DNA from: Comamonadaceae bacterium
Lineage (GTDB): Bacteria; Pseudomonadota; Gammaproteobacteria; Burkholderiales; Burkholderiaceae_C
Assembly (NCBI GenBank): GCA_947450005.1
Contig: CANFTU010000004.1
Coordinates: forward strand, 1 to 36,958
Direction of reading: 5' to 3'
Length of the DNA: 36,958 nt
Shown here: positions 19,091-24,811 of the stretch, one piece after another
Layout: every line of letters starts with the position of its first letter
Numbering within the stretch: position 1 is the stretch's first letter
Program-made: the position numbers and the translations under genes
Notes under the pieces: model-generated
Databases searched by the model: none
Told to the model about the DNA's origin: nothing
Seen by the model: only the letters and a program-made list of their open reading frames with translations

Positions 19091-19478
19091 CCCCAGTCCG
19101 CTTTCTCACAACAAAAGTTATCTATCATCCAGTGAACGGGCCGCTTTGGGCGGTCCAACTCCGTTCACGAAAATCGGAAAATCGTCCACTCTCGCAGCGT
19201 TTTCTAATTCCAAAACAGTCGATTGTCCTTGAAACAGCGCAAATTGGCAAGCTAATCCTCCTCTCTCGCCGCGAAAGCTTCGCTTCGCTTGCAGGCAGCC
19301 CAGAGCGTGGAAAACACGTGCTAAAAACCTGACGGGATTCGGATTTCTTTGCACCGAATCCCCTACGCACATGCATGAAAATATTTATGGCAATATTTTT
19401 TTACGAATATCATCGCCGCCATTAGGTCTTAAGCGCACCGATCGCTTGGGCTAACGTTCACTTCACGAGGAACTTCGT

Positions 19479-20117
19479 ATGGAAACACAGTCTGTGCCTG
19501 AGGCTGCGGGCGTAAAAGATGGCGGCGCACTCACGGCTGGCGACTATGGCTTTTTTGCGCTCATGGTCGTGGTGTTGATCGCCGTAACCTGGGTTGGTGT
19601 CTTGTCGTATGAAGAAGGCATGAACACCGAGCGGTCCAAACGCAACGGCGAAGCATGGGTCGCGTGGCTCACGGACAACAGCGCGAAACGGTTCGAACCG
19701 GACTACGCATTGGCCGCCTGCGCCGGAGGACCGCGCGCGGCAGCCGCACCTGAGGCTACCGAAAAGGTGCCTGTTGGCGAAGGAGAAACCCTTCTCCCTG
19801 CGGCACCAGCGGCCGCCGTAGCAAATGCGTGGGGCGCCTGCCTTGAAGAGATTCTGAAGAGCTCGGATTTGAAAGGACTGGTCAACCCATTCACCGGCAA
19901 AGCACCCGATCTGGTGGAGAAGTGCGACCCGGCAGACCACAACTTGCACGGAAATATCTCGATCGAGAAAAGTGTGGCGACCCCGGTGGGCTCTGCCGTA
20001 CCGTTCACGATTTCGCCGCTGGTGGCAGCGGATGCTATCGACACCAAATTGCAGCTCAAAGTGTCGATTTGCGATAAGGGGGCCTACCCCATCAAAGTTT
20101 CCGAATTCGAATTTTGA
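19479..20117 (+). CDS. Membrane-anchored protein of unknown family (one N-terminal TM; possibly pilin-like extracytoplasmic domain)
   Basis: TM YGFFALMVVVLIAVTWVGVLSY; four Cys in the exported part; NPFTG...C...GNISIEK...LQLKVSIC pattern; stop codon 8 nt from the next gene. Confidence 0.75.
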   Translation: METQSVPEAAGVKDGGALTAGDYGFFALMVVVLIAVTWVGVLSYEEGMNTERSKRNGEAWVAWLTDNSAKRFEPDYALAACAGGPRAAAAPEATEKVPVGEGETLLPAAPAAAVANAWGACLEEILKSSDLKGLVNPFTGKAPDLVEKCDPADHNLHGNISIEKSVATPVGSAVPFTISPLVAADAIDTKLQLKVSICDKGAYPIKVSEFEF

Positions 20118-20125
20118 GGTACCCC

Positions 20126-21766
20126 ATGGAAGAAAAAACCTACGTTTCAATCCATGAACTGGATGCCAAGTCCATCGTCGGTGCGACCGATGTAGAAGCC
20201 GATATACCGCGTGATTTGCCGCTGCGCAAATGGCTATACGCGTGGTTGCTGGATCCCCATATTGAGGGGAATTACCAGCAATTTATCGACAAGTGGGTCA
20301 GTATTTTGATTGTGGTCAATTTGTTCGCGCTGCTGTTCGAACAGGTGCCGGCCATTTTTGAGCCCAATGCCCATTTATTCCACTATTTCGACATTTTCTC
20401 GGTGGTGGTATTCACGCTGGAATACTTTCTGCGCTTTTATGTTGCGCCGGACGATCCCGATTTTGCCGGCAAACGCAGCGCCCGCGCCAGTTACCTGTTC
20501 AGCCCTTTTGCGATCATTGACTTTCTGGCGATTGCACCCTTTTATTTGAAGTTTTTGGGAATTCCGCTGGACTTGCGTTTCCTGCGGTTCCTGCGGCTGC
20601 TGCGGATCTTGAAGCTATTCCGCATCATTGTCCCGGCGTACCATGATTTTGTGAAGGCCAACGAAGGCCGCACCCTGCGCCAGAAAGTGCATGCACTGGT
20701 TTTCCCCGGCAAATTCGGCGGCAAACTGCAAGAGCTTTTTGACGGATTCATCGCCTTATGCGTGCTGCTGTCGGTTTTCGCCGTCATCATGGAGTCGGTG
20801 CAAAGCGTCAGCTACATGCTGAACATCCAGTTTGTCATCCTCGATGCAGTGATGGTTGGAATTTTCACCATGGAATACTTTATGCGCATGTATTCCTGTG
20901 TCGAAGAGCCTGGCTTCAAAGGCGCAGTCGGCGGCCGTATCAAGCAAGGCACGACGGTGTCGACTTTCATCGACTTCTTGGCGATATTGCCCTTCTTCCT
21001 GGAAGGCCTGCTGCACCATGTCCTGGATCTGCGGTTCTTGCGGGTATTCCGCCTGACGCGGCTATTGAAGCTGACACGCGGCAACGACGCGACGATCACC
21101 CTGGTCAAAGTGCTGTCCCGTGAATGGCCCATCATCAGCGCGTCAGCCTTCATCATGATCTTGCTGGTGATCATGACGGCGTCGCTGGGCTTTTTGTTTG
21201 AGCATGAGGCGCAGCCGGACAAATACGAAAACATCCCCACGACCATTTACTGGGCGGTTATCACGCTGGCCTCCATTGGCTATGGTGATATTTACCCGGT
21301 AACACCGATAGGCCGGGCCATGACCGTGGTCATGGCTTTCGCCGGCATCGGTATCTTCGCAATCCCTGCCGCTATTTTGGCCTCAGCCTTCAGCGACGAA
21401 TTGGTCAAAGAGCGCGAGGTTTTGAAGGCGGATCTGTACGACATCATGAAGGACGGAAAAATCAGCACCGACGAACTCGAGTTCATCCGCGCCGAAGCCA
21501 AGCGCCTGCACTTGAGTGTCGAAGAGGTGAGCGCGCTGGTCCGCCAGATTCAGCAAGAGTTGGAGCGGGAATCGAATTTCGCCGACATGCCGATTCACCA
21601 GATTGCCGCCAAACCGGAACTGGCCGTGGAGCACTACAAAACCCTGCTGAGCAATATCCGGCAGTTGGGGATGCTCATGGACCCGGCGGAGTTTGAAAGG
21701 CTTCGTGCGGCCAACAGCCGCCTGAGCCCCGACGAAGTGGAGTTGTGGAAAAAAATCAGAGGCTGA
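20126..21766 (+). CDS. Voltage-gated ion channel-like protein: VSD-VSD-pore with TerB-like C-terminal tail
   Basis: Two S4 segments (LDLRFLRFLRLLRILKLFRI and LDLRFLRVFRLTRLLKLTRG), one pore TIYWAVITLASIGYGDIYPVT; RBS GAGG just upstream of ATG 20126. Confidence 0.9.
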   Translation: MEEKTYVSIHELDAKSIVGATDVEADIPRDLPLRKWLYAWLLDPHIEGNYQQFIDKWVSILIVVNLFALLFEQVPAIFEPNAHLFHYFDIFSVVVFTLEYFLRFYVAPDDPDFAGKRSARASYLFSPFAIIDFLAIAPFYLKFLGIPLDLRFLRFLRLLRILKLFRIIVPAYHDFVKANEGRTLRQKVHALVFPGKFGGKLQELFDGFIALCVLLSVFAVIMESVQSVSYMLNIQFVILDAVMVGIFTMEYFMRMYSCVEEPGFKGAVGGRIKQGTTVSTFIDFLAILPFFLEGLLHHVLDLRFLRVFRLTRLLKLTRGNDATITLVKVLSREWPIISASAFIMILLVIMTASLGFLFEHEAQPDKYENIPTTIYWAVITLASIGYGDIYPVTPIGRAMTVVMAFAGIGIFAIPAAILASAFSDELVKEREVLKADLYDIMKDGKISTDELEFIRAEAKRLHLSVEEVSALVRQIQQELERESNFADMPIHQIAAKPELAVEHYKTLLSNIRQLGMLMDPAEFERLRAANSRLSPDEVELWKKIRG

Positions 21767-21857
21767 GCCAACCGCTCCGGTTTCTTCCACTATCCTTTAG
21801 CGCTTCATATTGCCAGACTGAAATACCTTGCAGCACATGATGCTGCAGGCGAGACCC

Positions 21858-22766
21858 ATGGACATCCATTCCGCGAAAAAAACCTTGATGGAGATCCTTG
21901 ACGGATCCCCGGAGCACAAAAGCAGCCACTATGTGGAACTGCTCATCACCGTGGTCGTCTTGATGAACTGCTCGGCGGTGATCCTGGACTCGGTTCCTGC
22001 GATTCACGCGGAGTACCGTGAATTCTTTCACGAGCTCGAGTTTTGGAGCGTGATGTTTTTCACGGTTGAATACGTTTTGCGGGTCTGGTCGCTGGGCGCC
22101 AAATATGCTGCTGGTGAGGGTGGCGCTTGGAAAGGCCGCCGGCAATACATGTTCAGCGCTTTTGGGCTGGTTGATTTTTTTGCGACCATGCCGCATTACC
22201 TGCACATGTTTTTCCCCACCTTGGACCTGCGGATTCTGCGCGTCTTGCGGTTGCTGCGGATTCTTAAACTCTCTAAATACAACACGGCATTGCAGGACCT
22301 CTTCCACGCCGTTAATTCCGAGCGCCGCGCCTTCGGCTCTGCGGCCTTTTTGCTCTTGATTGCAACCATTGTGTCGGCCTCACTGATGCACTTTGCTGAG
22401 GGCCATGAGCAACCCCAGTTTTTCGGCAGCATCCCGCACTCCATTTACTGGTCCATTGTCACCATCACCTCAGGCTATGGCAACGTGGAGCCGGTGACCA
22501 AGGCGGGTGAAGTCATCGCCTTGCTGACCGGTTTTCTGGGCGTGTGTATGGCGGCCATCATGACCGGTATCGTGGCTTCCGCGTTTTCCAACCAGCTGTC
22601 GCGCAAAAAAGCGGCCTACCAAAGCCAGTTGCGGCAGGTGCTGGCTGACGGCGTTGTCAGCGATGCCGAGCGCGAGTCGCTACGGGTCCTGCAGATGAAA
22701 TACCGGCTGTCCGATGCCCAGGTGCAAGCCGCCATGGACGAAGCCAAAATTGGTATGCCCAAGTAA
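21858..22766 (+). CDS. 6TM voltage-gated channel-like protein with non-canonical filter TSGYGN
   Basis: S4 LDLRILRVLRLLRILKLSK; pore SIYWSIVTITSGYGNVEPVT; C-terminal LADGVVSDAERESLRVLQMKYRLSDAQV; start uncertain (21837/21840/21858). Confidence 0.9.
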   Translation: MDIHSAKKTLMEILDGSPEHKSSHYVELLITVVVLMNCSAVILDSVPAIHAEYREFFHELEFWSVMFFTVEYVLRVWSLGAKYAAGEGGAWKGRRQYMFSAFGLVDFFATMPHYLHMFFPTLDLRILRVLRLLRILKLSKYNTALQDLFHAVNSERRAFGSAAFLLLIATIVSASLMHFAEGHEQPQFFGSIPHSIYWSIVTITSGYGNVEPVTKAGEVIALLTGFLGVCMAAIMTGIVASAFSNQLSRKKAAYQSQLRQVLADGVVSDAERESLRVLQMKYRLSDAQVQAAMDEAKIGMPK

Positions 22767-22772
22767 ATCACC

Positions 22773-23702
22773 ATGACAGCCCTTCAACTCTCGCCGCTGC
22801 AGCGGCTGCAGCGACGCACCTACGAAATTCTGGACGGCGCAGTCGCCGACAGCAAAAGCCAAGCGTGTGAGATTTTCATCGCGGTCTTGGTGGTGGCCAA
22901 CGTGCTGGCCATTATTTTGGAGTCGGTGCATGAGCTGCACGAGGCCTACGAGGTGTATTTCCACTATTTCGACTTGGTCAGCGTCATGGTCTTCAGCGTG
23001 GAGTTTGTGCTGCGGGTCTGGTCCTGCGGCATGAAATACGACCCCGTGCCGGGCAGCGCGTGGCAAGGCCGCAAGGACTACGTCTTCAGTCCTTTCGGAC
23101 TGGTGGACTTTTTCAGTACGGTGCCGTTCTATCTTCAGCTCATCTTGCCCGGCGCCGACCTGCGCGTACTGCGGATGTTCCGGCTCTTGCGGATTTTCAA
23201 GCTGTCGCGCTACAACAGCGCGATGGACGACATGTTCGAAGCCATCCGCTCCGAAAAAGACTCTTTTTCTTCGGCATTTTTTCTGTTGTTCATCAGCTGC
23301 CTGTTGTTCTCCAGCCTGATTTACATCATTGAGGGCCCAGACCAACCGGAAGTGTTCCCGTCCATCCCGGCGGCCATGCACTGGTTTGTGCTGACCATTA
23401 TTTCCGGCTGGGGAAATGTCGACCCCGTGTCTTTGGTCGGCGTGATTTTGGTGGTCGTCACGCAAATTTTGGCCATCGCCTTGGCCGCGATCTTGACCGG
23501 TGTGGTGGCAACCGCCTACACCGCGCAAGTGCAACGGCGTGAGGCCTTGTATGAGATGGAGGTGCGCGAAGTCCTTGCCGACGGCGTTGTCACCGAAGAA
23601 GAGCGACTCAAACTCAAGTCGCTTCAAATGCGCTACGGCATCACAGACGAGCAAGTCGAGGCTATTGCAGCGCAAGTACAGGCGGAAAAAAAGGCAAGCT
23701 AG
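22773..23702 (+). CDS. 6TM voltage-gated channel-like protein with non-canonical filter ISGWGN
   Basis: S4 ADLRVLRMFRLLRIFKLSR; pore AMHWFVLTIISGWGNVDPVS; C-terminal LADGVVTEEERLKLKSLQMRYGITDEQV. Confidence 0.9.
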   Translation: MTALQLSPLQRLQRRTYEILDGAVADSKSQACEIFIAVLVVANVLAIILESVHELHEAYEVYFHYFDLVSVMVFSVEFVLRVWSCGMKYDPVPGSAWQGRKDYVFSPFGLVDFFSTVPFYLQLILPGADLRVLRMFRLLRIFKLSRYNSAMDDMFEAIRSEKDSFSSAFFLLFISCLLFSSLIYIIEGPDQPEVFPSIPAAMHWFVLTIISGWGNVDPVSLVGVILVVVTQILAIALAAILTGVVATAYTAQVQRREALYEMEVREVLADGVVTEEERLKLKSLQMRYGITDEQVEAIAAQVQAEKKAS

Positions 23703-23716
23703 GCCTGCCTTTTTTT
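23686..23716. terminator. Bidirectional intrinsic terminator between convergent channel genes
   Basis: aaaaaaaggca - 9 nt - tgccttttttt; A-tract/T-tract on both sides; overlaps the last codons of the 22773-23702 CDS. Confidence 0.85.
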
Positions 23717-23746
23717 CGCATGCGCCCTGAGGCGCTTACATTGGGC

Positions 23747-24811
23747 TTATGTTTTCAACCGGCCCATCAGGCTGTTGAATTCGTGCTCGCCCAAGGCGCG
23801 CATGTGGGCCGCTTGGTCCGCAGTCACAAGGTTCAACTCCAGCATCGTGCTCACCAGATGGTCGCGCGAGGCGGCCGGCGCAACATGGTGACGAGCCTCT
23901 TCCTCGGATTCGCCAAAGAGCGCGACCATCAAGGTCTTGCCTACGATGTTCATCAATAAGCCGAACAAAACCAAGCCGCAGAACATGGTGGTACCTGCAA
24001 TCACCCGGCCCCAGAAAGTCACCGGGTACATGTCGCCATAACCGGTTGTGGTCAGCGTCACCACAGACCACCACATTGCGGCGGGAATCGAGGTGAAGAA
24101 TCGTTTGTCTTCGCCAATGGTGTTTCCGCTCACAGGGTCCACTGGCAAAAACTTGGCCGCTTCCGGCGGAGCGTCGGCGGGCAGCGGTTCGACTTTGAGC
24201 TTTTCATCGAGCGCGGCCTGGCCTTCTGCAATATGTTCGGGTGAGTACAAAACGCCTTCGGTGTAGTACATCAGCGAGCTGGAAATCATGACCACCGAAA
24301 ACAAGGCAATAAAGTAAATGCGCAAGTTCGTGGAGATCGATGTGCGCTGTGCTTTGTCACCCAAAGCCAGGCTTTGCGCCGCCATCTTGACCATTTTGAG
24401 CACTCGCAGCACCCGCACCACCCGCACCACCCGCAAGGCTTTTCCGCCTTTCAAGGCCGAGAGGTTCAGCAGCATCAAATAACTTGGCAGGATGGATATC
24501 AGGTCCACCAGACCCCAGAAACTGAATATGTAGGCCAAGCGGTTCGCCGCGAAATACACGTTAGCCAAGTAATCCACCGTGAAAAACGCCACCGCGCACA
24601 ACTCGACCACCTGAAAGGCATGCGCATACGTGGTAGCCCATGGCTCCACGGTCTCCAGCGCCAGGGACAAGCAGGAGACAAAAATCCAAAAATTCACCGC
24701 CTGAACCCAGCGGTGAAAGGCTATGGAATGGGGCACGGTGAACATGGCGCGCATCAAGCCGGGTTCGGCTTGGTGGTGGGATGCCAAATGGCCATTGGCT
24801 GAGGTATTCAT
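23747..24811 (-). CDS. 6TM voltage-gated potassium channel-like protein
   Basis: S4 LRVVRVVRVLRVLKMVK; pore AAMWWSVVTLTTTGYGDMYPVT; long S5-pore linker. Confidence 0.92.
   Translation of the reverse strand: MNTSANGHLASHHQAEPGLMRAMFTVPHSIAFHRWVQAVNFWIFVSCLSLALETVEPWATTYAHAFQVVELCAVAFFTVDYLANVYFAANRLAYIFSFWGLVDLISILPSYLMLLNLSALKGGKALRVVRVVRVLRVLKMVKMAAQSLALGDKAQRTSISTNLRIYFIALFSVVMISSSLMYYTEGVLYSPEHIAEGQAALDEKLKVEPLPADAPPEAAKFLPVDPVSGNTIGEDKRFFTSIPAAMWWSVVTLTTTGYGDMYPVTFWGRVIAGTTMFCGLVLFGLLMNIVGKTLMVALFGESEEEARHHVAPAASRDHLVSTMLELNLVTADQAAHMRALGEHEFNSLMGRLKT
24401..24436. repeat. Four tandem 9-bp units in the S4-coding region
   Basis: cactcgcag / cacccgcac / cacccgcac / cacccgcaa; encodes R-V-[VL] triplets on the minus strand. 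Confidence 0.85.

Follow-up and report, generated by a model that had tools for sequence, protein, structure and literature searches.

Bacterial voltage-gated channels are mostly known as single genes, and their physiological roles remain largely an open question. The present locus places four channel genes side by side with the gene for a membrane protein, which raises the question of whether such an arrangement constitutes a functional unit and, if so, which process it may serve. In the window (the whole analysed stretch of 36,958 nucleotides from a Comamonadaceae bacterium), five consecutive genes occupy positions 19479-24811 with no other gene between them, as the original prediction described. 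Four lie on the + strand: ANC (19479..20117), encoding a 212-aa membrane protein of no known family; VV (20126..21766), encoding a 546-aa channel in which two voltage-sensor domains precede a single pore and a helical C-terminal region; C2 (21858..22766) and C3 (22773..23702), encoding six-helix voltage-gated channel subunits of 302 and 309 aa. The fifth, C4 (23747..24811, - strand), encodes a convergent 354-aa six-helix channel and, as expected, carries a normal filter, the canonical TLTTTGYGD. The Pfam Ion_trans family (PF00520) scores above its curated cut-off in all four channels and covers two stretches in VV. The predicted spacings of 8 nt between ANC and VV (with the VV ATG at 20126, more likely than a start at 20114) and 6 nt between the C2 end at 22766 and the C3 start at 22773 were both confirmed. 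The C2 start is uncertain; it is placed at about 21858, with 21828 or 21837 possible, and varies among orthologues. The strong terminator proposed to end the + strand genes was also recovered as an A7/T7 hairpin at 23686-23716 (-19.9 kcal/mol, z -2.5), probably acting in both directions between C3 and C4; a consensus terminator scan missed it, as its loop exceeds the length that the scan allows.

The arrangement of the first four genes is conserved. Scanning GTDB with a VV alignment returned 80 loci, nearly all in metagenome-assembled genomes (MAGs) of freshwater Comamonadaceae and related Burkholderiales, along with the isolate Limnohabitans sp. 2KL-17, which carries the ANC-VV pair. Among loci with room for the neighboring gene, ANC lies directly 5' of VV in 73/74 by script and in 74/74 by eye, with a modal gap of 8 nt; the sole script exception (L113) reflects an over-extended VV reading frame that overlaps ANC. 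Of 73 loci with room, 45 have C2 after VV and 28 have ANC-VV alone; C3 follows C2 in 42/42, most frequently with a 4-nt overlap. Elsewhere in the window's genus, homologues of C2, C3, and VV keep this order too. Flanking genes vary by lineage, so the unit has been kept while its surroundings changed. No C2-C3 was seen without ANC-VV where the context was complete, which, together with the VV subfamily tree described below, marks ANC-VV as the core and C2-C3 as a dependent addition. Comparison of the window genes with three relatives gave dN/dS values of 0.014-0.13 overall (C2 and C3 0.014-0.05, VV 0.04-0.10, ANC 0.09-0.13), and strong purifying selection thus acts on ANC, VV, C2, and C3. Such low values, together with gene order and filters kept in dozens of genomes, make the cluster more than chance. 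We also note that records titled 'Rickettsia typhi' and 'Methylococcaceae' (L092 and L108) carry ANC-VV, and that these titles may mislabel freshwater bins. A further genome, G013, was not counted as independent evidence; it is probably contaminated, given that its contig matches the window at about 95% identity and its RecN reaches only 64%.

Two alternatives can be weighed directly against these observations. If the genes were unrelated channels that had become neighbors by accident, homologues should be scattered singletons; across the GTDB loci they are not, and the near-invariant ANC-VV and C2-C3 adjacency, the short or overlapping spacings, and the changing surroundings refute accident for ANC-VV-C2-C3, leaving it a probability close to nil as a general account. 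It does describe C4 in most genomes. A C4 orthologue occupies the same convergent place only in L022 and L038, near the window's lineage, and in L076, L077, L083, and L124 from Limnohabitans-like genomes (a label inferred from named relatives). As C4 adjoins the unit in only two lineages, it was rejected as a core member. Accordingly, the proposal of four different channel subunits holds only in part, C4 being an optional neighbor. For ANC-VV-C2-C3, whose order is fixed across loci, there is strong support for the original claim that the genes are a functional unit and not a set of unrelated transporters. The second alternative, a stress or anti-phage defence device, was also part of the original prediction, and a barstar-like gene (PF01337; 18689-19090, - strand) lies upstream of the operon in the window. 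PADLOC gave only PDC-S48 models at 19.6 bits or less, spread over S6 and the C-terminal part, and no defence genes were noticed in the neighborhoods examined; this reading is therefore not supported and we regard it as very improbable.

The VV protein has an unusual architecture. Alignments and an AlphaFold model (pLDDT 73) agree on S1-S4, a second S1-S4, S5-pore helix-S6, and a helical C-terminal region, as the predicted double-sensor layout requires. The majority of the S4 basic residues are invariant alignment columns in both sensors, as are the F..E / D charge-transfer residues, so both sensors look competent. The selectivity filter TLASIGYGD (21263..21289, + strand) is of the canonical [TS]-x-G-Y-G-D type and is kept as TLAS[VI]GYGD in 91/91 sequences, from which VV is inferred to be K+-selective. 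The closest PDB relatives by sequence and fold are the voltage-gated K+ channels KCNQ, Kv4, and Kv2, which share S1-S6, the S4 basic repeats, and the GYGD of VV; unlike them, VV has an extra complete N-terminal voltage sensor and is co-encoded with ANC. A quick-method VV tree contains one subfamily without C2-C3 and another with C2-C3, and within the latter C2-C3 seem to have been lost several times. The window's genome additionally holds a solo two-sensor VV paralogue (L021:5197-6861 (+), G000:C37), about 56% identical to VV and without ANC.

With respect to ANC, four Cys are invariant across 72 sequences and the predicted model (pLDDT 89) shows a small beta domain preceded by a single long helix at the N-terminus. 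Profile and structure searches of Pfam, NCBIfam, PADLOC, and PDB returned no match. The domain is likely periplasmic and disulphide-bonded, while the charge pattern flanking the helix is compatible with more than one topology. ANC is most likely an auxiliary subunit dedicated to this channel. KCNE and DPP6 are single-helix auxiliary subunits of animal Kv channels, and ANC likewise has a single membrane helix and is encoded alongside a channel; the resemblance is one of analogy only, as no relation in sequence or fold was found.

The two six-helix subunits differ from VV at the pore, as the prediction of aberrant filters had anticipated. Aligned with TLASIGYGD of VV, the filters read TITS-GYGN in C2 (22461..22484, + strand) and TIIS-GWGN in C3 (23394..23417, + strand); each is one residue short of the full-length canonical K+ filter and ends in Asn instead of Asp. 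The shortened form is kept in 54/54 C2 and 51/51 C3 sequences pulled by script, with GWGN invariant in C3 and the Tyr position variable in C2; one further partial C2 (L029) has Ser at this position. The nearest outside channel (L037, from another family) reads TLTTLGYGD, so the filters of C2 and C3 are one residue shorter than that of this channel, just as they are shorter than those of KCNQ, Kv4, and Kv2. The paralogues C2 and C3 share 48% identity; C3 also aligns with the second half of VV at 28% identity, and this alignment covers part of the C-terminal region. Their S4 basic repeats and charge-transfer residues are largely invariant, as in the VV sensors. Two bacterial channels offer comparison. 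NaK is a non-selective channel whose filter, TVGDGN, has two sites in place of four and ends in GN like those of C2 and C3 (PMC9822992), and NirBac is presented as a non-selective bacterial channel with an altered K+-channel filter (PMC4607889); neither is voltage-gated, and the alteration in C2 and C3 differs in being a one-residue deletion. By this resemblance to non-selective relatives, together with the missing residue and the replacement of Asp by Asn, C2 and C3 are predicted to be less K+-selective. The inseparability of the two genes and their frequent overlap suggest that the products form a heteromer, and because VV, C2, and C3 share part of the C-terminal helical region, which would allow mixed assembly, it is possible that C2 and C3 also join VV in a heteromeric channel.

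In some Limnohabitans-like genomes the unit is extended. Besides ANC-VV-C2-C3, islands in L124 (G245) and L122 (the complete genome G141) encode a second two-sensor channel and a DUF4337 protein and include a small ORF; the G245 island (L124:6174-15019 (-)) also holds C4 on the opposite strand and a BacNav-type channel with the filter TLESWAD. This TLESW-type filter is absent from VV, C2, C3, and C4 and was found only in the extra L124 channel. Additional channels of this kind, along with the adjacency of channels of differing predicted selectivity, would suit an electrical-signalling module independent of flagella, in which K+ and less selective channels make voltage pulses between or within cells. 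The 28 loci in which ANC-VV stands alone argue against this reading and it leaves the flagellar contexts described below unexplained; we consider it distinctly unlikely.

Gene neighborhoods point, indirectly, to a more specific process. With gene identities assigned by Pfam, ANC-VV was found directly after motB in nine loci from several divergent lineages (L031-L033, L035, L036, L102, L106, L111, and L116, of which L031 and L111 are the same contig), and most of these show flhF-flhG-fliA-fliS-motA on the contig. In three loci of the other VV subfamily (L065, L067, and L071), ANC-VV shares an operon with fliI, fliJ, a carbonic-anhydrase-domain protein, and a small protein family, f176. In the window's genome (G000) and in G015, a divergent ANC comes after an flhA-flhF-flhG-fliA-fliS-motA-motB operon, and in G000 the next gene encodes a degenerate single-sensor channel that retains the VV C-terminal tail. 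A single-sensor VV homologue is also the last gene of an flhA-flhF-flhG-fliA-x-fliS operon in G574, from another family. Thus, a subset of loci belongs to flagellar operons, in at least three settings, and most C2-C3 carriers have the operon away from flagellar genes. As a separate observation, the filter of the degenerate one-sensor channel after motA-motB in the window's genome (L118:11047-12880 (+), G000:C12) reads ATGYGADL.

The distribution of VV also follows that of a particular motor protein. Two MotB types exist in the genus, the B type being 56-70% identical to the L033 MotB (82-100% among its nearest kin) and all other MotB only about 30-39% identical to it. Full-length VV, defined by E below 1e-270 and coverage of both sensors, was found in 5 of 301 family genomes, representing 4 genera; all 5 have B-type MotB, which itself occurs in 10/301 genomes of 5 genera. 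If shared ancestry, which inflates the co-occurrence, is ignored, such nesting would arise by chance with a probability of about 1e-8 counted by genome or 3e-7 counted by genus. VV and B-type MotB coincide again among close relatives, where the exceptions are incomplete or contaminated genomes; some of the genomes used overall are MAGs of this kind. On RecN trees, whose backbone is weakly supported, genomes with the combined state fall at four separate positions inside the genus, and the state is also present in three other genera. Several B-type genomes (G098, G148, G153, and G302) are without VV, and the motor therefore does not need VV. Beyond the family, a near-full-length VV was found only in G545, a genome that belongs to the same family as G574; the genes ahead of this VV encode a C-like channel and a weak ANC (27 bits). 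None was found in a sample of 349 genomes from the phylum. The segment AMMAFFLLMW, which we take to be typical of proton-driven motors, is present in B-type MotB as in the A type; on this basis, membrane potential would mainly drive the B-type motor at neutral pH. G007 (C171 and C78) and G012 (C139 and C154), MAGs with 5-6% contamination, each hold both MotB types, a pattern resembling the acquisition of a second flagellar system that carried ANC-VV within it.

We therefore hypothesize, at a tentative probability of about 0.45, that ANC-VV, with or without C2-C3, forms a complex acting as a voltage-gated cation channel, through which membrane potential is set or sensed on behalf of the B-type flagellar motor. 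Each VV subunit would contribute two sensors to a voltage-gated K+ channel and ANC would be its single-helix auxiliary subunit, while C2-C3 would be a paired optional addition whose products probably co-assemble, perhaps also with VV. Given the K+ filter and voltage sensors, VV would be expected to pass K+ outward upon depolarization, restoring the electrical component of the proton motive force, and C2-C3 could provide an opposing or graded cation conductance. The two sensors per subunit may give the channel an atypical gating charge or an additional point of control, and the complex may be located at the motor and thereby affect swimming. A precedent for channel influence on motility exists in Bacillus, where the voltage-gated Nav channels NaChBac, NavBp, and NsvBa affect swimming and are tied to flagellar motility (PMC4225499). 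Those channels are of the BacNav type and no partner gene is described there, whereas VV has a K+ filter and its link to flagella is genomic. It is also conceivable, yet unlikely, that the genes form an electrical module dedicated to swimming, in which VV repolarizes, C2-C3 depolarize, and ANC acts as a periplasmic sensor or motor link; the cell would then generate or shape voltage changes controlling one flagellum type. The Na+-type channel and the second two-sensor channel of the Limnohabitans-like islands would fit such a module.

The main competitor is a general regulator of membrane potential or of K+ and osmotic balance in freshwater Burkholderiales with no specific flagellar role, for which flagellar sites are landing places of a mobile gene pair and the co-occurrence reflects shared ecology and ancestry. 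Control sequences bear on this reading. In the window, a conserved element, TTTACGAATATCAT (19400..19413, + strand), lies about 80 nt before ANC. The form TTT[A/G]CGAATATCAT recurs unchanged in 35 entries, among which a few contigs are represented twice, with 13/13 positions kept about 80 nt 5' of ANC; the upstream DNA of these entries is otherwise dissimilar. The element normally occurs once per genome, at the ANC-VV operon, and no second copy with 0-1 mismatch was found in the window's genome. This suggests a dedicated promoter or operator, which is likely also its role in the window. It is absent from ANC-VV pairs within flagellar operons, as expected if a flagellar promoter transcribes those pairs. 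A shared regulon was considered and rejected; the element is essentially unique to this operon, and the other near-matches examined lie in a coding region or beside unrelated genes. No enrichment of FliA-type promoters was found upstream of ANC. A stand-alone operon with its own element and no FliA signal favors the general regulator, as do the C2-C3 loci, most of which adjoin unrelated genes such as urea and purine-catabolism clusters, and the B-type genomes that are missing VV. Against it stand the insertions beside flagellar genes in several distinct settings, the divergent copy in the motA-motB operon of the window's own genome, and the restriction of full-length VV to B-type genomes in the family sample. 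A general role is thus possible, yet we judge it less probable than a role at the B-type motor.

The channels clearly belong to a known superfamily and have a known fold, and what is new is the architecture, the partner, and the context. In the open-access literature we found nothing on flagellar K+ channels, two-sensor bacterial channels, or this cluster in Limnohabitans or Rhodoferax, and no description of the one-residue-short filter class, of ANC, or of the operon's flagellar association. A multi-gene operon with two-sensor subunits, a filter class represented by more than 50 sequences, and a partner of unmatched fold provides material for studies of gating and selectivity. If the flagellar link is true, the purpose of bacterial voltage-gated channels becomes testable in culturable freshwater bacteria such as Limnohabitans sp. 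2KL-17.

Finally, two further genes recur in these neighborhoods. The window's genome and its relatives encode a carbonic-anhydrase-domain protein (PF00194) in a fliG-fliH-fliI or fliI-fliJ operon (L119:11984-13453 (+) and L065:5314-6657 (+)), an association for which no report was found in the open-access literature; this protein might supply protons or buffering near the motor. The f176 family, whose tested members have no Pfam match, recurs beside motB, the carbonic-anhydrase gene, and ANC-VV, at L033:2685-3215 (+), L119:13450-13992 (+), L065:6700-7224 (+), L125:8657-9232 (-), and L134:10096-10590 (-).
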